A stretch of DNA of 8,034 nt, taken from Deltaproteobacteria bacterium (lineage in GTDB: Bacteria > Myxococcota > Polyangia > Polyangiales > B10-G4). Numbering within the stretch: position 1 is the stretch's first letter; each line of letters begins with the position of its first letter. Location of the stretch: NCBI GenBank assembly GCA_019312705.1, contig JAFDCW010000158.1:1-8034 (forward strand). Direction: 5' to 3'. The notes beneath the pieces are model-generated. The model did no database searches and was not told the DNA's origin. It saw nothing but the letters and a program-made list of their open reading frames with translations. Of the stretch, positions 1 to 8,034 are shown piece by piece. The translations under genes were made by a program, and so were the position numbers.

Positions 1-126
1 ATTTTCGACGAGAATCTAGAGCGCAACTTCGGACATCGCCTCTTCATCGGCGTCTAGTCTTAGCGGCAATCCGGCTCCGGTCGACTGACGTCGCCCTTTC
101 GCCTTCTTGCCACCTCCTCGGTCGAC

Positions 127-148
127 GTACTTTAGGTACTTTAGGTAC
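127..148. repeat. Short tandem repeat, 9-bp unit
   Basis: The unit GTACTTTAG occurs twice in perfect succession (127-135, 136-144) and is followed by a third partial GTAC (145-148). GTAC, itself a palindrome, therefore recurs every 9 bp. The stretch is notably AT-richer than its surroundings. It lies about 330 bp before the first confident gene, so any regulatory role is conjecture. Confidence 0.7.
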
Positions 149-409
149 GCCTCTGTCGGCCCCTGCGGGCGCGCTCGCCAGCTGACGCACGTGGACGCGA
201 CTACCCGACTGGGTCCCGGCTCCGGGACTCGTCGATACATCCCCCGGCCGTGCACGATGCGCCGAGTGACGCGACGATGGCGCATAGATTTTGGGGTGAG
301 AATCGAGCCACGGGCTCTCCCGGGCGATCCGCCGGTGGCGGTGAGGGCCCGCATTTCAGGGTCCCAAGCTCGCGGTTGCGTGTGATTTCGCCGTCTCGAC
401 CCCACCCAG

Positions 410-425
410 CAGACCGAACGGTCTG
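410..425. promoter_or_regulatory. Palindromic operator candidate, TetR/NemR-like
   Basis: CAGACCG (410-416) and CGGTCTG (419-425) are perfect inverted repeats separated by AA. The core AGACC-N4-GGTCT has the size and shape of operators bound by TetR-family repressors and resembles the known NemR-type box (TAGACC-N4-GGTCTA). It lies 48 bp before the preferred GTG start of the SseB-like gene, where a repressor would block transcription of the downstream genes. No TetR-type regulator is encoded in the window, so the binding protein is unknown. The symmetry is seen directly; the function is inferred. Confidence 0.45.
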
Positions 426-473
426 TCTGGAAAGTTGCGGTCCCTCGGAACGGCCAGTCATCATTCTGATCGC

Positions 474-1418
474 GTGGCCGATTCCCCCAGCACACCCTCC
501 CCATTTCAACGACTGCTCGCGGACGCCCAGCAGGGCGGCCAAGCCAAAGTCGACGCTCTGGTGGCGCTCGCCCAGCGGACGGTGCACGTGCCCACCTGGG
601 GTCAGGACGCGAGCTTCCGAACCCTGACCAACGCCGACGGTCAGACGGCGCTGCCCCTATTTTCGAGCGCCGACCAACTCGAAGCTGCCGCGACGCGGTT
701 CGGGTGGCGAGAAGCCGACGGTTCCGTGGCATCGAAGGAGCTCGGAGCACGGGACGCACTCAACTACGCCGTCGGCCACGATCTGCATTTTGTCGTCATC
801 GACATCTCGGCCCCCCATTCTCTCGACATCGACCGCGAGGAGATCGAGCCTCTCCTGAGCCCCGCCGCCCAGCGCGAGTCCACCGGACCCTACGCCGGCG
901 TCGGACGAATCTCGTCGTCGATCATGAGAGCGGTCAAACCTTCGGGGGCGATCAAGATGAACACCAAAGGCGAGCCGATGGGCGGCGCGGCTCGCACGCC
1001 CGACGCGAAGCCCCTGCCCGACGCGAAGCCCCTGCCAGGAGCAGAGCTCCAGGCCTCGGTCTCCGACGAACCCGTCGCCGTGACGACCTTCGGCTCCGGA
1101 TCGAGCGTGAGCGTGCACAAGCTCAACGAAGAGCCGGCCGAGGAGCTGCTTTCTGGCCTCGCGGCGGTGCTGCGCAGCTACCCCGAGGTCGAGTGGGCGG
1201 CGCTCTCGGCGGTCGCCCGGGGACCGTCTGCGCCTATGCCCACCGTCGCCCTCAAGATCGACACCGCGTTCCGCCAACGCTTGAACGAGATCATCCAGAA
1301 GCTCCGGGAAGTCGGGGAAGAGCTCGGGGCTAGCCTCGACGTTCTGCTCCTCGACGACCCTGGCGTCATGCGCACCGTCCGGGCCGAAGCCAAGCTCTTC
1401 TATCCTTGGAAGCGCTGA
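474..1418 (+). CDS. SseB-family protein with N- and C-terminal SseB domains
   Basis: About 314 residues from the preferred GTG. The N-terminal part (about residues 7-125) fits the SseB N-terminal domain: a helical start, an ALPLFSS strand (residues 59-65) followed by a helix, then a hydrophobic strand LHFVVIDIS. The C-terminal part (about 205-314) fits the SseB C-terminal domain, with a helix ending near SYPEVEWAAL, a strand TVALKID and a final LDVLLLDD strand. A Pro/Ala-rich linker joins them and contains a perfect PDAKPL duplication (residues 176-187). There is no signal peptide or membrane segment, so it is probably cytoplasmic. The family is named after an E. coli protein that enhances serine sensitivity, and its biochemical role is not known. 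A TTG at 435 is an alternative start, but it sits 9 bp after the operator-like palindrome and has no properly spaced ribosome site. The gene is 54 bp upstream of the aminotransferase and may share its transcript. Confidence 0.8.
   Translation: MADSPSTPSPFQRLLADAQQGGQAKVDALVALAQRTVHVPTWGQDASFRTLTNADGQTALPLFSSADQLEAAATRFGWREADGSVASKELGARDALNYAVGHDLHFVVIDISAPHSLDIDREEIEPLLSPAAQRESTGPYAGVGRISSSIMRAVKPSGAIKMNTKGEPMGGAARTPDAKPLPDAKPLPGAELQASVSDEPVAVTTFGSGSSVSVHKLNEEPAEELLSGLAAVLRSYPEVEWAALSAVARGPSAPMPTVALKIDTAFRQRLNEIIQKLREVGEELGASLDVLLLDDPGVMRTVRAEAKLFYPWKR
999..1034 (+). repeat. Perfect 18-bp in-frame tandem duplication
   Basis: Two identical 18-bp copies (999-1016 and 1017-1034) encode PDAKPL twice within the linker between the two SseB domains. 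A degenerate third start (PGAEL) follows. Identical DNA suggests a recent slippage duplication that changes linker length without breaking the frame. Confidence 0.9.
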
Positions 1419-1472
1419 AGGTCCCAACCGGACGCCTCGACTAGGCCCGCGACACTCGCTAAACCTGGGCCT

Positions 1473-2807
1473 GTGAGCCACCTCGGACAGCTGCCCCCGG
1501 CGGTACGGGCCCCCCTCCCGGGACCCCGCGGTGAGAGCCTCGTCGAAACCCTCGCGAAGACCGAGTGCCCGGCGTTCACCACCCGCCGCGCCCGACGAAG
1601 CGAGCAGGCGGGCGCCCCCCACGATCCCATCGTATGGGCCGAAGCCCGAGGCGCCAACGTGGTCGATGCCGACGGCAATCGTTTCGTCGACCTCACGGCG
1701 GGGTTCGGGGTCGCCGCGATCGGCCACGGCCACCCCCGGGTCGTCGCCGCCATCGAGGCCCAGGCGAAGCGCCTCTTGCACGCCCTCGGTGACCTGCACC
1801 CTTCGGACGTCAAGGTCGAGCTCCTCGCGCGCCTCTCGGCCCTGTCCCCCTGGGACGGTGGACGGGTCGTCCTAGCCCTCGGCGGCGCCGACGCCGTCGA
1901 GGCCGCCCTCAAGACAGCCGTCCTCGCGACGGGGCGACCCGGGGTCGTCGCCTTCGAAGGCGGCTACCACGGACTCTCCCACGGGCCCCTCGCAGCCTGC
2001 GGCTACTCCGAGGCCTTCCGGGCGCCGTTCAGAGCGCAGCTGAACCCCCACGTCACCTTCGCACCCTTTCCGCGATGCGGGAGCCTCGCCGACGCCCTCG
2101 GCGCCGTAGAGCGTGCTTGGCCCGACCAGGCCCCCGGGGCCGTTCTGATCGAACCCCTCCTCGGTCGTGGCGGCGTCGTTCTTCCACCGAAGGGTTTCCT
2201 CGCGGGGGTCGGAGAGATGGCGCGGAGGGCCGGTGCGCTGCTCGTCGTCGACGAGATCTTCACGGGCTTCGGTCGGACCGGTGCGCGCTTCCGGTCCGTG
2301 GTCGACGGGGCCGCCCCGGACCTCATCTGCGTGGGCAAGGCCCTCGGAGGCGGCCTGCCGGTAAGCGCGCTCCTCGGCCGCCCCGAGGTGATGGCGTCCT
2401 GGGGAGACCCCGACGGCGCGGCCCTTCATACGGGCACGTTTTTCGGCAACCCGGTCACCTCGGCTGCCGCCCTCGCCGCCCTCGACGTGCTCGAGGACGA
2501 AGGCCTCGCCGAGCGCGCGCTTCGGGTGGGCACGCCCTTCCTGGCCCGCCTCCGGGAGCTCGCTCCACGCCATGCTTCGATCGTCGACGTACGCGGTGTC
2601 GGATTGCTCGCTGGCATCGAGTTGGAAAGCGGCGAACTGACCCTGCGCGTCGTGCGGCGGCTCCTCGAGCGCGGCTACCTCACGCTGCCGGCGGGGCAAA
2701 ACGCCGAGGTCTTGCAGGTTGTGCCGCCCCTCACCATCGACCCCGCGCTGCTCGAAGCCTTCGTCCTGGCCCTCGACGAAGTATTGGCAGCCGAGGGGGC
2801 CCGGTGA
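1473..2807 (+). CDS. Class III pyridoxal-phosphate aminotransferase
   Basis: 444 residues, the normal size for fold-type I class III aminotransferases (GabT, ArgD and glutamate-1-semialdehyde aminomutase relatives). The diagnostic parts appear in order: WAEARGANVVDADGNRFVDL near the N-terminus (class III entry strands), IGHGHPRV, GGADAVE (137-143, phosphate-binding loop), EGGYHG (162-167, ring-stacking aromatic), VVDEIFTGFGRTG with Asp260 contacting the pyridine nitrogen, GKALGGG with Lys289 as the Schiff-base lysine, and HTGTFFGNP (319-327). The enzyme should be active and cytosolic. Such enzymes swap an amino group between an amino acid and an aldehyde or keto group. The downstream aldehyde-forming genes suggest an aldehyde acceptor. 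The GTG start is chosen because the frame's N-terminus begins there, but the ribosome site is weak. A 6-bp inverted repeat (1443-1448 and 1467-1472) abuts the start. The stop overlaps the luxE-like start by 4 bp. Substrate specificity cannot be assigned. Confidence 0.92.
   Translation: MSHLGQLPPAVRAPLPGPRGESLVETLAKTECPAFTTRRARRSEQAGAPHDPIVWAEARGANVVDADGNRFVDLTAGFGVAAIGHGHPRVVAAIEAQAKRLLHALGDLHPSDVKVELLARLSALSPWDGGRVVLALGGADAVEAALKTAVLATGRPGVVAFEGGYHGLSHGPLAACGYSEAFRAPFRAQLNPHVTFAPFPRCGSLADALGAVERAWPDQAPGAVLIEPLLGRGGVVLPPKGFLAGVGEMARRAGALLVVDEIFTGFGRTGARFRSVVDGAAPDLICVGKALGGGLPVSALLGRPEVMASWGDPDGAALHTGTFFGNPVTSAAALAALDVLEDEGLAERALRVGTPFLARLRELAPRHASIVDVRGVGLLAGIELESGELTLRVVRRLLERGYLTLPAGQNAEVLQVVPPLTIDPALLEAFVLALDEVLAAEGAR
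2793..2799 (+). promoter_or_regulatory. Ribosome binding site setting the luxE-like start
   Basis: The purine run GAGGGGG lies 4 bp before the GTG at 2804-2806, inside the end of the aminotransferase gene. It supports starting the LuxE-like protein at this GTG and translational coupling through the GTGA overlap. Confidence 0.55.
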
Positions 2808-3895
2808 GTGACCCCTTCGAAGAGCTTGCGGCGAGGGCCGCCGCGCTCATCGATAGCCTCGCTGGGGGGGGGCGGGACGACGAAGGGCGGGATGCCCTTC
2901 TCCTCGACCTCGCCCGGGCCCAGGCCGAGGTCGTCGCGCCCTATCGTCGCCTCGTCGCGAGCCGCGGGGGAGCCCTCGAAGACGCCAGCACCATCGACGC
3001 GGTGCCTGCTCTGCCGACGGATGTCTTCCGCTACGCCCGGGTTTCCCGCTTCGCCGAGTCAGAGACCCAGCGTGTCTTCCGGACCTCCGGAACGACCCAC
3101 GGCGCCCGCGGCGAGCACCATTTCCGAGACCTCTCCCTTTACGATCGCGCCGCCCGCGCAGCCGCCCGCCACGGCCTCTTCCGGGACGGCCTCGAACGCC
3201 ACCTGGTCATCCTCGCCCCGCACCCATCGGAGGCGCCCGACTCTTCGCTCTCCTACATGCTGGGCCGTTTCGAGTCGTGGTTCGGCGAGGGTCGTTCGAC
3301 CTGGGCCTTTCACGACGGCGCCCTCGACCTCGAGGCCCTCAGGAAGGCTCTCGAAGGCGCGATCGACGCCGACCAACCCGTGGCGCTCCTGGGCACGAGC
3401 TTCGCATTTGTGCACGCCGAAGACGCCCTTCGAGGCCAATACTTCGCGCTCCCGGACTCGAGCTTCGTCATGCAGACCGGAGGCTTCAAGGGGCGGTCCC
3501 GGGAGGTCGCTCCCGAGGCGATGTGCGACCTCCTCGCCAAACGCTACGGCGTGGCCGACAACGCCATCGTCGCCGAGTACGGCATGACCGAGCTCTCGAG
3601 CCAGATGTACGAAACGACCCTTCACTGTCCCGACGAGGTGCGCCGGCTCTGGGTGCCCGGATGGGTGCGAGCGACACCCGTCGACCCCGAGAGCCTCGAG
3701 CCGGTGGCACGAGGACAAGTCGGCATCCTGCGCATCGACGATGTAGCCAACGTAGAGTCCGTCGCGACGATCCAGACCGCCGACCTCGCCCGGTGCGTCG
3801 GGGACGGGATCGTGCTCATCGGTCGGGCTCCGGGGACGGTCCCCCGGGGATGCAGTCTCGCCATGGACGAAGCCCTCGGGGACCTGCGCCCATGA
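2804..3895 (+). CDS. LuxE-like acyl-protein synthetase
   Basis: 363 residues from the GTG at 2804, close to the roughly 370 residues of LuxE. LuxE enzymes activate a carboxylic acid with ATP to an acyl-adenylate, take it onto an internal cysteine, and pass it to the LuxC reductase. Visible family features are the nucleotide-binding loop FRTSGTTHGARG (Thr94-Ser95-Gly96-Thr97-Thr98), the segment QTGGFKGRSRE, the adenylate-forming motif AEYGMTELSSQMYE (257-270, with Thr262 and Glu263), and a C-terminal GRAPGTVPRGCSL in which Cys350 sits 13 residues from the end, where LuxE carries its acyl-acceptor cysteine. All catalytic elements appear intact. There is no signal peptide. The gene overlaps the aminotransferase by 4 bp (GTGA) and the reductase by 4 bp (ATGA). 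No luxA or luxB lies nearby, so a role in bioluminescence is unlikely. The acid it activates is unknown. Confidence 0.88.
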   Translation: MSDPFEELAARAAALIDSLAGGGRDDEGRDALLLDLARAQAEVVAPYRRLVASRGGALEDASTIDAVPALPTDVFRYARVSRFAESETQRVFRTSGTTHGARGEHHFRDLSLYDRAARAAARHGLFRDGLERHLVILAPHPSEAPDSSLSYMLGRFESWFGEGRSTWAFHDGALDLEALRKALEGAIDADQPVALLGTSFAFVHAEDALRGQYFALPDSSFVMQTGGFKGRSREVAPEAMCDLLAKRYGVADNAIVAEYGMTELSSQMYETTLHCPDEVRRLWVPGWVRATPVDPESLEPVARGQVGILRIDDVANVESVATIQTADLARCVGDGIVLIGRAPGTVPRGCSLAMDEALGDLRP

Positions 3896-5124
3896 CCGCC
3901 GCCGACAAAATCCGCCGCCGTGCAGCGGAGACCGCGGCGTCCGCAGAGACTCTCGATGCCGTCGGCGTGGGGGCTGTGGCCGGGGCCATCGCCCAGGCCG
4001 CAAGCGCCCTCGTGGACCCTGATTCCGACATCGGCAGCGAAGCGCGGCCGCTGCTCGTCGAATCGACGGGGCTCTCCCGGGAGATGGTCGACTGGGCGCT
4101 CGCGACAACCTGCGGAGACGTCTCGGCGGACGCCCTCGAAGCCTTCGCAGCCGCGGCGGATTTGACCGGCGCGCCATCGCCATCGGCCCGGGCGGTCCCG
4201 GCCCGGGCCCGCCTCGCCGCAATCGTGCTTTCGGGCAACGTCTTCACGGCGCCGTTTCGCGCCGTCGCCGTGCCGCTGCTCGCCGGGGTCCCGGTCATCG
4301 CCAAGGCATCGTCCCGGGACGACATCTTTCCCCGGGTCTTGCACCGCGCTCTCGAGGCCGCGGCCCCCGACGTCGCCGCGAGCTACGCGGTCCTCACCTT
4401 CGAAGGCGGCGATGCGCACCTCGAAGACGCGCTCTTCGCCCAGGCCGACGTCGTCGCCGCCTACGGGAGCGATACGACCCTGGGCCACATCCGCGGGCGC
4501 CTCCCGGCCACGACCACCTTCGTCCCCCACGGCCATGGCCTCGGGGCGATCTGGATTCCAGACGAAGCCGATGACGAAACCGTCGCCCGGGTAGCCCTCG
4601 ATGTCGCCGCCTACGACCAGCGCGGCTGCCTCTCCCCCCATGGCATATGGGTCCGGGGCGACGCCGCTCGGGGCCGAAGCTTCGCCGACCGCCTCGCGCG
4701 GGCCCTCGAGACCATACGCGAGTCGCTGCCCCGGGGTCTCCTGCCCCTCGACCGCGGAGCTCAGCAACTCCAATGGCGGGGCGTCGCCGCCGCTCGCGGC
4801 GACCTCTTCGAAGGCGACGGCTACGCCGTGAGCTTCGAGGGCGACGGCCCCCTGCGCCTGAGCCCAGGCTACCGAAACGTCTCGGTGCTTTCCTGCGCCA
4901 GCGCCGAAGACCTCGGCCACCGCCTCGTCCCCCTCGGCATGCACCTCAAGGCCCTCGGCGTCGCCGCGGACGGGCCAGCTCGCCGAGCCCTCGCCGCAGC
5001 CCTCCCCGCCCCCCTCGCCCCCCGAGTCAGCGAAGTAGGCACCCTACAAACCCCTCCCCTCGACAGCCTAGCCGACGGCCACAGCCCCTGGTTCGGCCTC
5101 ATCCGCCACACCCAAGTGGACTAG
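3892..5124 (+). CDS. LuxC-like acyl-CoA/acyl-thioester reductase
   Basis: 410 residues, somewhat shorter than luminescence LuxC (about 480). LuxC enzymes belong to the aldehyde dehydrogenase superfamily and use NADPH to reduce an acyl thioester, via an enzyme-bound thioester, to a free aldehyde. Visible features are the Rossmann-type segment LSGNVFTAPFRAVAVPLLAGVPVIAKASSRD (split here as SGNV at 114-117 and the cofactor-binding IAKASSRD at 136-143), the strand ADVVAAYGSDTTL, and the catalytic loop YDQRGCLSPHG with nucleophile Cys246, as in LuxC. The ATG at 3892 overlaps the luxE-like stop as ATGA and is preceded by GGGGA (3878-3882) at good spacing. LuxE and LuxC are known to form a fatty acid reductase complex, so these two products probably bind each other. 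The missing length may reflect a different acyl substrate. No luciferase genes are present. Confidence 0.9.
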   Translation: MTAADKIRRRAAETAASAETLDAVGVGAVAGAIAQAASALVDPDSDIGSEARPLLVESTGLSREMVDWALATTCGDVSADALEAFAAAADLTGAPSPSARAVPARARLAAIVLSGNVFTAPFRAVAVPLLAGVPVIAKASSRDDIFPRVLHRALEAAAPDVAASYAVLTFEGGDAHLEDALFAQADVVAAYGSDTTLGHIRGRLPATTTFVPHGHGLGAIWIPDEADDETVARVALDVAAYDQRGCLSPHGIWVRGDAARGRSFADRLARALETIRESLPRGLLPLDRGAQQLQWRGVAAARGDLFEGDGYAVSFEGDGPLRLSPGYRNVSVLSCASAEDLGHRLVPLGMHLKALGVAADGPARRALAAALPAPLAPRVSEVGTLQTPPLDSLADGHSPWFGLIRHTQVD

Positions 5125-5140
5125 GCACGGGGCCGCTGGT

Positions 5141-5159
5141 CCCCGGCCCGGTCCCGGGG
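5141..5159. terminator. Possible shared hairpin between convergent genes
   Basis: CCCCGG (5141-5146) and CCGGGG (5154-5159) can form a 6-bp GC stem with a 7-base loop, in the 35-bp gap between the luxC-like stop and the convergent lipoprotein stop. There is no T-tract on either strand, so a rho-independent role is only suggested by position. Confidence 0.35.
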
Positions 5160-6398
5160 TCAGGGAGTGGCCCAGACGTAGCCGGCGATCGACTCGTAGA
5201 CATAGCCGAAGACCGAGACGGCGCTGTCCCGCTCTGCGATGCTGGGCGTGTAGAAGTGGTCGGCGCCCTTGCGCAAGCGGTAGAGGGGCGTCGAGCCGCA
5301 GACGCTCGCCGACCGGGCGATGTAGCCCACCGTGAGCTCCAGCGTCGCTCCCGCCGAGCCTTCGCAGACGGCGGACTGGGTATAGAAGTGGAAGCCGCTC
5401 GCGAGCAGGCACCGATAGAAGGGCACCAGCCCCGGCTTCGAAGACGAGTAGAGGTGGAAGAAGTCGTAGTGTTCGACGGTGAAGCCGCAGCACGCCACCT
5501 CGGTGCGGCTCGTCGAATAGAAGTGCTCGCCGGTCGAGCTCGCCAGCGAACGGTGCACGGCGATCCGGCACGAAGCCCCCTCATCGCAGCTCCCGTCGCA
5601 ATCGTCGTCGACGAGGTTGCAGCTCTCGACAGAGGTCGGCGGCGCATCGCACATCACCCAGCTGCCGGCGCTGCAGGTTTCGTCCCCGGCGCCGCACGCC
5701 GTCGAGCACGCCCGGGTCAGCCCTTCGTCGGTGGTCCCGTCGCAGTCGTCGTCTACGCCATTGCAGGACTCGGTCCCCACCGGCGGCGCGTCGCAGCCCA
5801 CGAAGGCCCCGCCTTCGCAGCGCTCCGTGCCGGCCCCGCAGGCGGTGGCGCACATGCGGGTTACGTCTTCGTCGACGGCGTCGTCGCAGTCTTCGTCCAG
5901 GGTGTCGCAGGTCTCCGTCGCCCCGGGGTACCGAAACGCGTTTGTTTCGTCGCAGTCGGTCTCGGCACTCACGCCATCGCCGTCGATGTCGGCGCTTCGA
6001 GGCAGGCAGAAGCGGTTGCGGCAGATCTCCGTGGCGGCGCATTCCGTGTCGGCCACGCAAGCGGGGTACGGCGCGCACGCGCCGTCGACGCAACGCTCGA
6101 GGGCCTCGCAGGTGATCGAGCCGCAGGAGGGGCCGATGATCGTCGTATCGCGGCCCGAGTCTCGGGGGGGCGTCGAGCCCGAATCGATCGGGCCACCGTC
6201 GTCGCGTGTCCCGGAGTCCATCACCGAGGTCCCCGTGTCCCGGCCCCGGCCCGTCGGATCCGTCTCCGTGCTGCTGGCGCAGGCGCCCAGGAGCGACACG
6301 AGGGCCAGGAGAGAGGCCAAGCGAGAGGCCGGGAGCAGGGTGCGCCGCGGTGAGGAAGGGAGAGGAAGATGCGCGAAATTAATCAAGCGGGACTGCAT
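5160..6398 (-). CDS. Cys-rich lipoprotein: MopE-type metal-binding repeats plus DUF5648-like domain
   Basis: 412 residues. The N-terminus is a lipoprotein signal: arginines near 18-26, a hydrophobic run, and lipobox LLGAC with Cys40. Residue +2 is Ala, compatible with outer-membrane sorting. A low-complexity Asp/Ser/Gly/Thr spacer (41-88) follows. Residues 92-131 form a small Cys-rich domain. Residues 137-277 carry MopE-like putative metal-binding repeats: one DIDGDGVSAETDCDE calcium-type loop, then three C-N/D-x-x-D-D/E-D-C-D units at 164-177, 212-225 and 260-273, spaced 48 residues apart and separated by C-x3-CGAG stretches. Residues 279-412 match the DUF5648 style, with repeated HFY(S/T) motifs (292-294, 337-339, 381-383) and alternating GYI/GYV strands. 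It is predicted to be surface- or periplasm-facing and to bind calcium or another metal. The N-region before the signal is long, but no better start lies closer. The gene converges on luxC and stands alone. The function is unknown. Confidence 0.85.
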   Translation of the reverse strand: MQSRLINFAHLPLPSSPRRTLLPASRLASLLALVSLLGACASSTETDPTGRGRDTGTSVMDSGTRDDGGPIDSGSTPPRDSGRDTTIIGPSCGSITCEALERCVDGACAPYPACVADTECAATEICRNRFCLPRSADIDGDGVSAETDCDETNAFRYPGATETCDTLDEDCDDAVDEDVTRMCATACGAGTERCEGGAFVGCDAPPVGTESCNGVDDDCDGTTDEGLTRACSTACGAGDETCSAGSWVMCDAPPTSVESCNLVDDDCDGSCDEGASCRIAVHRSLASSTGEHFYSTSRTEVACCGFTVEHYDFFHLYSSSKPGLVPFYRCLLASGFHFYTQSAVCEGSAGATLELTVGYIARSASVCGSTPLYRLRKGADHFYTPSIAERDSAVSVFGYVYESIAGYVWATP

Positions 6399-6455
6399 AG
6401 GCCGTAGTCAGCTTGCGGGACGCGGGGCGATCGAGTCAAACGCCCGGCCCCAACC

Positions 6456-6483
6456 TTGACACCCCCAAGCCAGGGGCTATCTT
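6456..6483 (+). promoter_or_regulatory. Sigma70-like promoter of tRNA-Phe
   Basis: A perfect -35 hexamer TTGACA (6456-6461) and a -10-like TATCTT (6478-6483) are separated by 16 bp. Transcription would start near 6490, a few bases before the tRNA, as expected for a stable RNA gene. It is the clearest promoter in the window. Confidence 0.7.
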
Positions 6484-6496
6484 CCGCCTCCCCATC

Positions 6497-6572
6497 GCCC
6501 AGATAGCTCAGTTGGTAGAGCAGGGGATTGAAAATCCCTGTGTCGGCGGTTCAATTCCGTCTCTGGGCACCA
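6497..6572 (+). tRNA. tRNA-Phe (GAA)
   Basis: A full cloverleaf can be folded. The 7-bp acceptor stem is GCCCAGA/TCTGGGC (6497-6503 with 6562-6568), the D stem GCTC/GAGC, and the anticodon stem GGGGA/TCCCT with one G-T pair. Loop TTGAAAA carries anticodon GAA at 6530-6532. The variable loop has 5 bases, and the T stem GGCGG/CCGTC has loop TTCAATT. Discriminator A6569 is followed by an encoded CCA (6570-6572). All stems pair, with only two G-T wobbles. It decodes UUC/UUU. The gene has its own promoter and hairpin, so it is a single-gene unit. Confidence 0.97.
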
Positions 6573-6577
6573 AGTCA

Positions 6578-6603
6578 TGAGCCCCGCTCAACCGCGGGGC
6601 TCA
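6578..6603 (+). terminator. Hairpin terminator of tRNA-Phe
   Basis: TGAGCCCCGC (6578-6587) and GCGGGGCTCA (6594-6603) form a perfect 10-bp stem with a 6-base loop, starting 5 bases after the tRNA CCA end. The following bases are not a strong T-run, so termination efficiency is uncertain, but position and stability fit a tRNA terminator. Confidence 0.75.
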
Positions 6604-6612
6604 GTCGTATCC

Positions 6613-6624
6613 GGAGCGCGCTCC
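6613..6624. repeat. 12-bp perfect palindrome
   Basis: GGAGCGCGCTCC is fully self-complementary and lies between the tRNA terminator and the phosphatase gene, about 125 bp before the phosphatase start. It could be an operator or part of a cruciform. No regulator family is suggested by its sequence, and GC-rich genomes produce such palindromes by chance. Confidence 0.5.
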
Positions 6625-6748
6625 CCCGGAGTAGCAGGGCGCCGTGTTGCAAGGCAGAATCTCCGGGTGATTTGGCTCCTCAACCGGCGTCTCGCCCTCG
6701 CCCTCGGCATGGCCGGCGGGCGACCGCCCCCGAAAGTGACCATCCACC

Positions 6749-7555
6749 GTGGGTCCTGAGGCCCTGCGCTTCATCGTCCCTTTCACCAGCGTCGACCTCG
6801 CCGCGGCCCAGGTGTTTCCGCTGCTGCACGGTCACGCCGGCGTCTTCACTCACCGCCTCGAGGGCTCGCCCCGGGACAATCAGGACGCCGCCCTCGTGAT
6901 CGGCCACGGAGAGGGGTCGGACGTGCTCGTCGTCGCGGACGGGTCCGGGTCCGGAGACCCCGACCTCGGCGCGGAAGCCGCGAGGGTCGCCCTCGGGGAG
7001 ATCGTGCGCGGGGTCATCGGAGGCCTCGCCGGCGGCCTGTCGGCCCGGGAAGGCGTGCTCGCCGGCTTCGAGACCGCGAACGAGCGCGTGCTCGGCCTCG
7101 GGGCCGGCGCGGCGACGACCCTCGCCGTTTGCGAGATCACCGGCGACCAGGTTCGCACCTATCACGTCGGCCACTCCCGGGTGCTCGTCTGTGGTCAGGG
7201 CGACCGCAGCCGCTTCATCACGGCGGTGCCGACCGACGGCGCGAAGGTCGTCGGTGACCCGGCGATGCAGGTAGAGGTCAGCCCGAACCTGCGCCTCGGA
7301 AGACGCGGCACCATCGTGCTCGGGTCCGACGGTCTCTTCGCCAACCTCTCGGACCGCGAAATCGTCGACTTCCTCTGCCGCTGCCCGCTGCCCGATGCCA
7401 TGGCCAGCGCCATCGCCGCGGCTCGGGGGGCCATGGGCCAAGGGGCCGGCGCCCCCGACGACCTGACGCTCATCGCCTATCGCCCACACCACCGCGCGTC
7501 GCTGCCGCCGTCAGACCTCGGAGCGTCGATGCCCTCGTCCGATCAGGGCGTGTAG
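6749..7555 (+). CDS. PP2C-family serine/threonine phosphatase-like protein
   Basis: 268 residues, the size of a stand-alone bacterial PP2C domain. These metal-dependent enzymes remove phosphate from Ser/Thr on target proteins. Visible motifs are DNQDA (43-47), VVADGSGSGD (62-70, metal ligand Asp64 and Gly65), GAATTLAVCEI, HVGHSRVLV (139-147), VLGSDGLFANLSDREI (Asp194) and a terminal DDLTLIAYR (Asp237/Asp238). The core acidic ligands are all present, so activity is plausible. Two departures from the family stand out: DGSGSG replaces the usual DGMGG, and His142 stands where most members have Asp in VGDSR. There is no signal or membrane segment, so it should be cytoplasmic. The last 20 residues are Ser/Pro-rich and probably disordered. 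The GTG start has only a weak ribosome site. Myxobacteria use many Ser/Thr kinases, but no partner kinase lies in the window. The 3' end overlaps the convergent glycine-rich gene by 13 bp. Confidence 0.82.
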   Translation: MGPEALRFIVPFTSVDLAAAQVFPLLHGHAGVFTHRLEGSPRDNQDAALVIGHGEGSDVLVVADGSGSGDPDLGAEAARVALGEIVRGVIGGLAGGLSAREGVLAGFETANERVLGLGAGAATTLAVCEITGDQVRTYHVGHSRVLVCGQGDRSRFITAVPTDGAKVVGDPAMQVEVSPNLRLGRRGTIVLGSDGLFANLSDREIVDFLCRCPLPDAMASAIAAARGAMGQGAGAPDDLTLIAYRPHHRASLPPSDLGASMPSSDQGV

Positions 7556-8034
7556 GTCGTCGCCGAGGTGCCCATGGTACCCGCCGGGGCGCCGGCTCCA
7601 CCGGTGCCGCCGGCGCCGCCGGTGCCGCCGTTGATCGTGCTCGCCCCGTCGGGGGTGACCGTGCTGGTGCCCCCGAGGACGACGCCGAAGGACGGGCCGC
7701 CGCCGCCGCCGGCGCCCGCGCCGCCGTCCCCGCCGTCCCCGCCGTCACCGCCGCTGCCCCCATAGCCCGATGAGCAGCCCGGCGGGACGAGGCGCGACCC
7801 TCCGCAGAGGCCCATGCCTCCGGCGCCTCCGGGGCGGCCATCGGATCCGTCCCCACCGTCGCCGCCGGACCCCGGGGTCACGGTCGTGCTCTCGAGGGCG
7901 ATGGCCGAGTTCCAGGCGAAGAGAGCCACCGAAGCCCCTCCGCCCCGGCCGCCGCGGCCCGCGTCGCCGCCGCAGCCTCCGGAGCCGCCGCCGCCCCCGG
8001 CCGCGCCCCCGACGTAGCAGAACGAGATCGAGCA
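7543..8034 (-). CDS. PGRS-like glycine-rich protein, C-terminal part
   Basis: The leftward frame is open from the right edge to a TGA at 7543-7545, giving at least 163 residues. The true start lies beyond the window, so an ATG at 7929 is only internal. The sequence alternates glycine runs (GGxGGxGG type) with short hydrophobic/Ser/Thr strands such as SVALFAWNSAIALESTTVTPG and SFGVVLGGTSTVTPDGASTI, shortened here to their pattern: a beta strand, a turn and a STVT-like strand before each glycine block. This matches PGRS-like proteins common in myxobacteria, which probably form a beta-helix or polyglycine-II-like fold and are usually surface-exposed or secreted. Scattered cysteines (for example in GLCGGS and PPGCSSG) may form disulfides. 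The signal peptide is not visible. Function is unknown. The proline-rich frames on the opposite strand of this stretch are shadows. Confidence 0.78.
   Translation of the reverse strand, partial: CSISFCYVGGAAGGGGGSGGCGGDAGRGGRGGGASVALFAWNSAIALESTTVTPGSGGDGGDGSDGRPGGAGGMGLCGGSRLVPPGCSSGYGGSGGDGGDGGDGGAGAGGGGGPSFGVVLGGTSTVTPDGASTINGGTGGAGGTGGAGAPAGTMGTSATTYTP

Follow-up and report, generated by a model that had tools for sequence, protein, structure and literature searches.

We examined an 8,034-nucleotide stretch of DNA (the window; contig JAFDCW010000158.1, positions 1 to 8,034) from a Deltaproteobacteria bacterium assigned to the Myxococcota, and found that three adjacent forward-strand genes at 1473..5124 encode a class III aminotransferase dependent on pyridoxal phosphate (PLP), a LuxE-like acid-activating enzyme and a LuxC-like acyl-thioester reductase. 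In our judgement the three genes almost certainly constitute one functional module, and the module probably makes an amine from an acid. The specific route that we favor, with a probability of about 0.57, is a three-enzyme conversion of a free fatty acid into a primary amine that would rely on Lux-type activation and reduction. A first-pass annotation of the same DNA had proposed an acid-to-aldehyde-to-amine cassette; the proposal gains partial support from a conserved gene order, co-occurrence in two phyla, invariant residues and a LuxC-like predicted fold; we infer the reactions, their direction and order, the fatty-acid substrate, the amino donor and the product. Its accompanying analogy to ArgC and ArgD fared worse, as described below.

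The presence and absence of the three genes across genomes provide what we regard as the strongest evidence that the aminotransferase works with the LuxE-like and LuxC-like proteins, namely co-occurrence despite physical separation. We used detection thresholds of 1e-20 for LuxE, 1e-12 for LuxC and 1e-95 for the aminotransferase, the last value being chosen after seeing the score gap to its paralogues, and we scored at most 4-10 candidates per genome (at most four for LuxC) in genomes that came without completeness values, so that absences may be misses. In the first phylum, inferred to be Myxococcota (377 genomes), the LuxE-like gene was present in 291 genomes, the aminotransferase subfamily in 289 and LuxC in 246. 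LuxE and the aminotransferase occurred together in 281 genomes and were both absent from 78, with LuxE alone in 10 and the aminotransferase alone in 8 (phi = 0.87). LuxE and LuxC were jointly present in 241 genomes and jointly absent from 81, with 50 containing only LuxE and 5 only LuxC; all three genes were found in 234 genomes and none in 75. In the second phylum, inferred to be Gemmatimonadota (200 genomes), 63 genomes contain both LuxE and the aminotransferase, 4 only LuxE, 2 only the aminotransferase and 131 neither (phi = 0.93). There, 21 of the 22 loci read have LuxC next to LuxE, and the aminotransferase lies in none of the 22 LuxE flanks. Because the aminotransferase is missing from all of these flanks, linkage alone evidently does not explain its co-occurrence with LuxE. 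Fisher values for the association (1.2e-59 and 1.9e-44) exaggerate how many independent events there were, since presence follows clades. When eight genomes with LuxE and no adjacent aminotransferase were searched, seven encoded the aminotransferase elsewhere, at 472-562 bits compared with at most 268 bits for the next paralogue. Among 14 named control genomes, the LuxE Pfam model matched none and the LuxC model matched four.

The arrangement of the genes is also conserved. The cassette begins with the aminotransferase gene (1473..2807, 444 amino acids, GTG start), assigned by Pfam, alignment to E. coli enzymes and comparison with 131 relatives. The LuxE-like gene follows (2804..3895, 363 amino acids, GTG start; assigned by Pfam, a match to the solved LuxE chain 7xc6_E and alignment of a cysteine), and the LuxC-like gene is last (3892..5124, 410 amino acids, ATG start; assigned by Pfam, predicted fold and Cys246). 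Direct reading of the sequence confirms that start and stop codons overlap by 4 bp at both junctions, as GTGA at 2804..2807 and ATGA at 3892..3895. The first-pass annotation had made its proposal depend on the neighborhood being conserved in relatives, and we found that most of the loci examined keep the order aminotransferase-LuxE-LuxC, here counted when all three genes lie on one strand within 1 kb. A scan of a species-genome collection with a LuxE profile gave 46 loci (L001-46), which mostly carry Myxococcota-type names (Sandaracinaceae, Polyangiaceae, Myxococcales, Deltaproteobacteria) and include five from an 'uncultured bacterium' and two from Gemmatimonadota; 36 of them show the triplet. 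Among the ten that do not, a contig edge cuts three (L029, L041, L045), four have the aminotransferase and no LuxC within 1 kb (L030, L031, L033, L034), and three have LuxC and no aminotransferase within 1 kb (L035, L037, L044). The triplet is present in 27 of 30 further loci (L051-80) and in 25 of 40 loci picked by hand (L081-120), where the aminotransferase is adjacent in 30 and LuxC in 31. The hand-picked loci were drawn from a ranked list at E-values of ~8e-113 to 6e-83, leaving out weaker LuxE matches; one such weaker match, found through its aminotransferase (L132), carries the full triplet. All ten genomes of this sample without an aminotransferase within 1 kb still contain one according to a genome-wide search. 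With the window included, a 4-bp overlap is seen at 83 of 102 readable aminotransferase-LuxE junctions and at 66 of 100 readable LuxE-LuxC junctions, a recurrence that is evidently more than chance; the first two sets of loci share genomes, and sums over both count some genomes twice.

All three proteins appear to be relatives of named enzymes rather than the named enzymes themselves, because each passes its Pfam cut-off and misses those of NCBIfam. The aminotransferase matches PF00202 (Aminotran_3; E = 1.5e-89, 301 bits against a cut-off of 30.5) and passes no NCBIfam cut-off among the 25 models listed of 71 matched, the best reaching 282 of 574 bits. The LuxE-like protein matches PF04443 (E = 1.5e-15, 57.4 bits against 24.9) and the solved LuxE chain 7xc6_E (E = 5.6e-15), and the LuxC-like protein matches PF05893 (E = 3e-38, 132 bits against 21). 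The catalytic residues listed by the first-pass annotation (aminotransferase Lys289, the LuxE-like T94-T98 loop and Cys350, and LuxC-like Cys246) are kept, as judged from alignments and relatives.

The C-terminal cysteine of LuxE carries the acyl group. Cys350 of the LuxE-like protein (codon 3851-3853) aligns with the cysteine of the C-terminal GCSL motif of 7xc6_E (profile of 23 LuxE-like proteins, E = 7.5e-19) and is found in all 134 ungapped relatives (2 of 136 are gapped), and we presume from this alignment that it accepts the acyl group. The T94-T98 loop is encoded at 3083-3097, and Glu263 and Asp327 are further features of the protein. Its AlphaFold model has a mean predicted local distance difference test score (pLDDT) of 88.0, falling below 50 at residues 341-357, which hold Cys350; such a tail fits a mobile arm and could also be plain uncertainty of the model. 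One related locus (L036:2900-4013) has its LuxE-like gene split across two frames, either a sequencing error in a metagenome-assembled genome or a decayed copy. In the LuxC-like protein, Cys246 (codon 4627-4629) aligns with the cysteine of the YDQQACFS motif of the solved LuxC chain 7xc6_A (LuxC profile, E = 3.9e-13), is invariant in 119 of 119 aligned relatives, and is the presumed nucleophile. The AlphaFold model of this protein (pLDDT 92.8) has 7xc6_A as its top match in the PDB, with a template modeling (TM) score of 0.82, followed by aldehyde dehydrogenases.

The substrate pocket of the aminotransferase differs from those of enzymes that act on carboxylates. We used one alignment of E. 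coli GabT, PatA, BioA and ArgD with 39 family members, and a second of 131 members in which some genomes appear twice. Lys289 (codon 2337-2339) aligns with Lys268 of GabT, and both Lys289 and Asp260 are found in all 131 relatives; Glu227 occupies another catalytic position. Aminotransferases for gamma-aminobutyric acid (GABA), ornithine, acetylornithine and putrescine have a conserved Glu-Arg ion pair (Glu243-Arg426 in YgjG), which is thought to open for the alpha-carboxylate of 2-oxoglutarate, and another arginine (Lys183 in YgjG) contacts substrate carboxyls in the GABA- and ornithine-type enzymes, with Phe91 of YgjG forming part of a hydrophobic entrance (PMC4244111). The window aminotransferase has neither the pair nor the additional Arg/Lys. 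The glutamate of the pair is replaced by Arg232 (codon 2166-2168) in 131 of 131 family members, and the arginine position, 415 (Gln415 in the window, codon 2715-2717), is never arginine: its residues are Gln (52), Ser (25), Thr (15), Glu (14), Ala (10), Val (9) and Gly (6), so that a neutral residue stands there in 117 and Glu in 14. The carboxyl-binding Arg/Lys position is taken by Leu168 (codon 1974-1976) in 130 of 131 relatives, and Phe78, which aligns with YgjG Phe91, is likewise kept in 130. Loss of the Glu-Arg pair alone is not special to this family, because E. coli BioA also lacks it and the pair is retained by only 10 of the 20 class III paralogues compared, which come from the same genomes. 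Arg232 and Leu168 occur in none of these 20 paralogues, and by this comparison the two residues mark the family. We infer that the acceptor lacks a carboxylate and that the donor is held through Arg232; Leu168 and Phe78 would suit an uncharged, hydrophobic aldehyde. The ArgC/ArgD-like logic suggested by the first-pass annotation therefore fits poorly, as the aminotransferase is without the arginines by which ArgD-type enzymes bind carboxylates.

A further observation concerns the 32 family members at loci L121-L152, where position 415 is Glu in 14 and, together with Arg232, forms a full reversal of the usual Glu-Arg pair. LuxE was not found beside the aminotransferase in 31 of these 32 loci; the exception is L132.

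From these features we propose the following sequence of reactions. The LuxE-like enzyme would use ATP to convert the acid to an acyl-adenylate and then move the acyl group onto its own Cys350, located on the presumably flexible C-terminal tail. At 363 residues it falls ~60-70 residues short of the PaaK chains that its model matches (423-433 residues), and on that basis it appears to lack the C-terminal domain of coenzyme A (CoA) ligases. Because of this apparent lack, neither CoA nor an acyl carrier protein (ACP) should be required for activation. The tail would next deliver the acyl group to the LuxC-like enzyme, at Cys246, and the thioester would be reduced to an aldehyde with NAD(P)H. The aminotransferase would then aminate the aldehyde, and the carboxylate of the amino acid donor may be held by Arg232.

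Several results weigh against this pathway. Neither Lux-like protein approaches the NCBIfam equivalog of its luminescent counterpart: the LuxE-like protein scores 51.2 bits against 550 for NF052244, so that by score it is a superfamily relative and not luminescent LuxE itself, and the LuxC-like protein scores 33 bits against 750 for NF052251. The LuxE-like model is matched best by PaaK aryl-acid (phenylacetate) ligases, with a TM score of only ~0.6, and 7xc6_E is absent from the 50 fold matches listed for it. The complete triplet within 1 kb occurs in only 25 of the 40 hand-picked loci. In the first phylum, 50 of the 291 genomes with LuxE have no LuxC and 5 have LuxC without LuxE, under a shallow LuxC search. 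One genome of the second phylum (G006, 1.7 Mb) contains LuxE and no aminotransferase orthologue at the 472-562-bit level. Absence is also structured by clade: LuxE was detected in none of the 16 genomes of one order (the G133 group, which includes G044), the aminotransferase and LuxC were undetected in all 16 as well, and five of these genomes measure 9-11.4 Mb, so the module seems to be absent from a whole order. Finally, no match to FabI, an enoyl-ACP reductase, turned up when Myxococcota loci were searched at E = 1e-20; 30 of these loci cover only ~4 kb.

The same acid-to-aldehyde-to-amine chemistry might instead operate on one particular acid that is not a fatty acid and is produced elsewhere in the cell: an aryl acid, an acid derived from an amino acid, or the carboxylate of a larger lipid or pigment. 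We consider this unlikely, though less so than the other alternatives. It would account for phenylacetate ligases being the top fold matches and for the lack of any fatty-acid gene seen recurring in Myxococcota, where the commonest neighbor cluster reaches 15 of 58 loci compared with 25 of 40 for the triplet, and the pocket of the aminotransferase speaks against contact with a carboxylate without singling out a substrate. However, LuxC and LuxE, the known relatives, act on fatty acids (PMC9646698), and in the second phylum a direct search found FabI (assigned by Pfam) immediately upstream of the aminotransferase and co-oriented with it at 12 of 20 loci (L133-L152); neighbor clustering counts it in 13 of 20. 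Among the recurring neighbors in that phylum, only FabI bears on the chemistry.

The separation of the aminotransferase from LuxE-LuxC in the second phylum, together with the genomes in which LuxE occurs without a detected aminotransferase (10 of 377 and 4 of 200), raises the question of whether the aldehyde serves another purpose and the aminotransferase carries out a parallel reaction of the same pathway. This arrangement is improbable, given the strong co-occurrence in both phyla and the 4-bp overlap that joins the aminotransferase and LuxE genes at most junctions; class III aminotransferases, moreover, are established users of aldehydes. It is far less probable still that the pathway runs in reverse, as a catabolic route in which the aminotransferase turns an amine into an aldehyde, the LuxC-like enzyme, with its aldehyde dehydrogenase fold, oxidizes it and the LuxE-like enzyme releases the acid. 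Transaminases are reversible and the LuxC-like fold does match aldehyde dehydrogenases, but oxidation needs no ATP-type activating enzyme and the gene content is that of the known reductive LuxC/LuxE pair.

The chemistry itself is already known. The closest characterized parallel that we found, one that the first-pass annotation did not name, is PtTamA/PtTamH from tambjamine biosynthesis in Pseudoalteromonas tunicata, where a fatty acid is converted to an aldehyde and then to an amine by adenylation, thioester reduction and class III transamination, with fatty aldehydes of C7-C14 and L-Glu as the preferred donor (PMC9594044). The tambjamine system uses two fusions, one of adenylation with ACP and one of transaminase with thioester reductase, within a natural-product cluster; in contrast, the cassette consists of three separate proteins with LuxE and LuxC, has no natural-product cluster recognized around it and is present in most genomes of the phylum sample. 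Pfam detected no ACP or thioester-reductase domain in the window proteins, and the cassette comprises separate single-domain proteins. The aminotransferase of prodigiosin biosynthesis, PigE (PDB 4ppm), pairs a thioester reductase with a class III aminotransferase and is not known to contain LuxE or LuxC. PigE is a fusion whereas the window cassette is unfused, and the window aminotransferase resembles PigE in sequence, at 250.5 bits against the cut-off of 850 for NF053554.

The fatty acid reductase of bacterial luciferase systems, LuxC-LuxE(-LuxD) (PDB 7xc6), resembles the cassette in the aligned LuxE and LuxC cysteines and in the LuxC fold. It differs in that the cassette has an aminotransferase as the likely user of the aldehyde and lies far from the equivalog cut-offs, and in a Pfam scan of six window genes, which covered those other than the frame at 7543-8034, no luciferase (luxA/luxB) or LuxD gene was found. 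LuxCDE converts fatty acids to aldehydes for luciferase (PMC9646698), and LuxC, LuxE and LuxD are mentioned as an engineered supply of aldehyde (PMC3937522). Outside luminescence, homologues of LuxE and LuxC lie beside fatty-acid genes in flagellin glycosylation islands of Aeromonas (PMC7874193) and Enterobacteriaceae (PMC4875605). Unlike the cassette, these genomic islands are variable and also carry genes for ACP, reductase and glycosyltransferase functions; Aeromonas has a class III aminotransferase in its Group I islands and luxE/luxC in Group II, and the aminotransferases named for the Enterobacteriaceae are of the PseC and DegT/FdtB types. In the open-licence literature we found no report on the aminotransferase-LuxE-LuxC trio or its product. 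As far as we found in that literature, three things are new: an aminotransferase joined to Lux-type activation and reduction, the broad conservation of this combination in a phylum, and the modified gate of the aminotransferase.

The surroundings of the cassette are less conserved. An SseB-like gene (435..1418, forward strand; Pfam PF07179, E = 6.5e-10) ends 54 nt before the aminotransferase gene and is possibly the first gene of the operon. Relatives of it lie upstream on the same strand, though not always adjacent, in 26 of the 46 scan loci, and neighbor clustering placed a metallophosphoesterase gene downstream on the opposite strand in 20 of the 46. Clustering was repeated on 58 loci, the 40-locus sample among them: none of the 45 clusters listed was an SseB cluster, and the phosphoesterase cluster contained a single sample locus (L081). 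Because both neighbors nearly vanish in this clustering, we treated them as mainly local synteny and not as a fourth partner. Around the Myxococcota loci no biosynthetic cluster was recognized and neighbors vary between clades, with 10 neighbor proteins scanned. Recurring neighbors in the second phylum also include a Na/Ca exchanger, a HAD hydrolase, an ABC transporter, a pyridine-nucleotide oxidoreductase and, by eye, a LigA-like protein. In all, 17 neighbor proteins were scanned with Pfam (10 from Myxococcota loci and 7 from the second phylum), and other neighbor labels, housekeeping genes among them, were given by eye.

A promoter scan of 1-5400 found none, a terminator scan gave hits at chance level only, and an Rfam scan of the window detected only a tRNA. 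Downstream of the cassette, the reverse strand at 5160-6398 encodes what by eye looks like a lipoprotein, in which Pfam finds MopE-type metal-binding motifs (PF11617) and DUF5648 (PF18885). The tRNA, a tRNA-Phe (GAA) at 6497-6572 on the forward strand, lies between this gene and one for a PP2C-type phosphatase (6749-7555), and a glycine-rich open frame on the reverse strand at 7543-8034 runs off the end of the window.

LuxC and LuxE are known as suppliers of aldehyde to luciferase; their relatives here appear to supply an aminotransferase, with lux genes not seen nearby, and the trio is retained across distant lineages without a recognized natural-product cluster. For class III aminotransferases, the altered Glu-Arg gate raises a well-defined question about structure and function. 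If the proposed pathway is correct, the trio would be a compact route, driven by ATP, NAD(P)H and PLP, that turns free acids into primary amines with no need of carrier proteins, and would be of use in biocatalysis. It may be, at somewhat short of even odds, that most genomes of the first phylum and about a third of those of the second share a self-contained Lux-type pathway with a rebuilt aminotransferase gate, whose product would be a long-chain amine or amino-lipid not yet described and would belong to the cell's normal physiology. The phyla inferred to be Myxococcota and Gemmatimonadota would, if the proposal is correct, contain an unrecognized class of amines, probably a lipid component.

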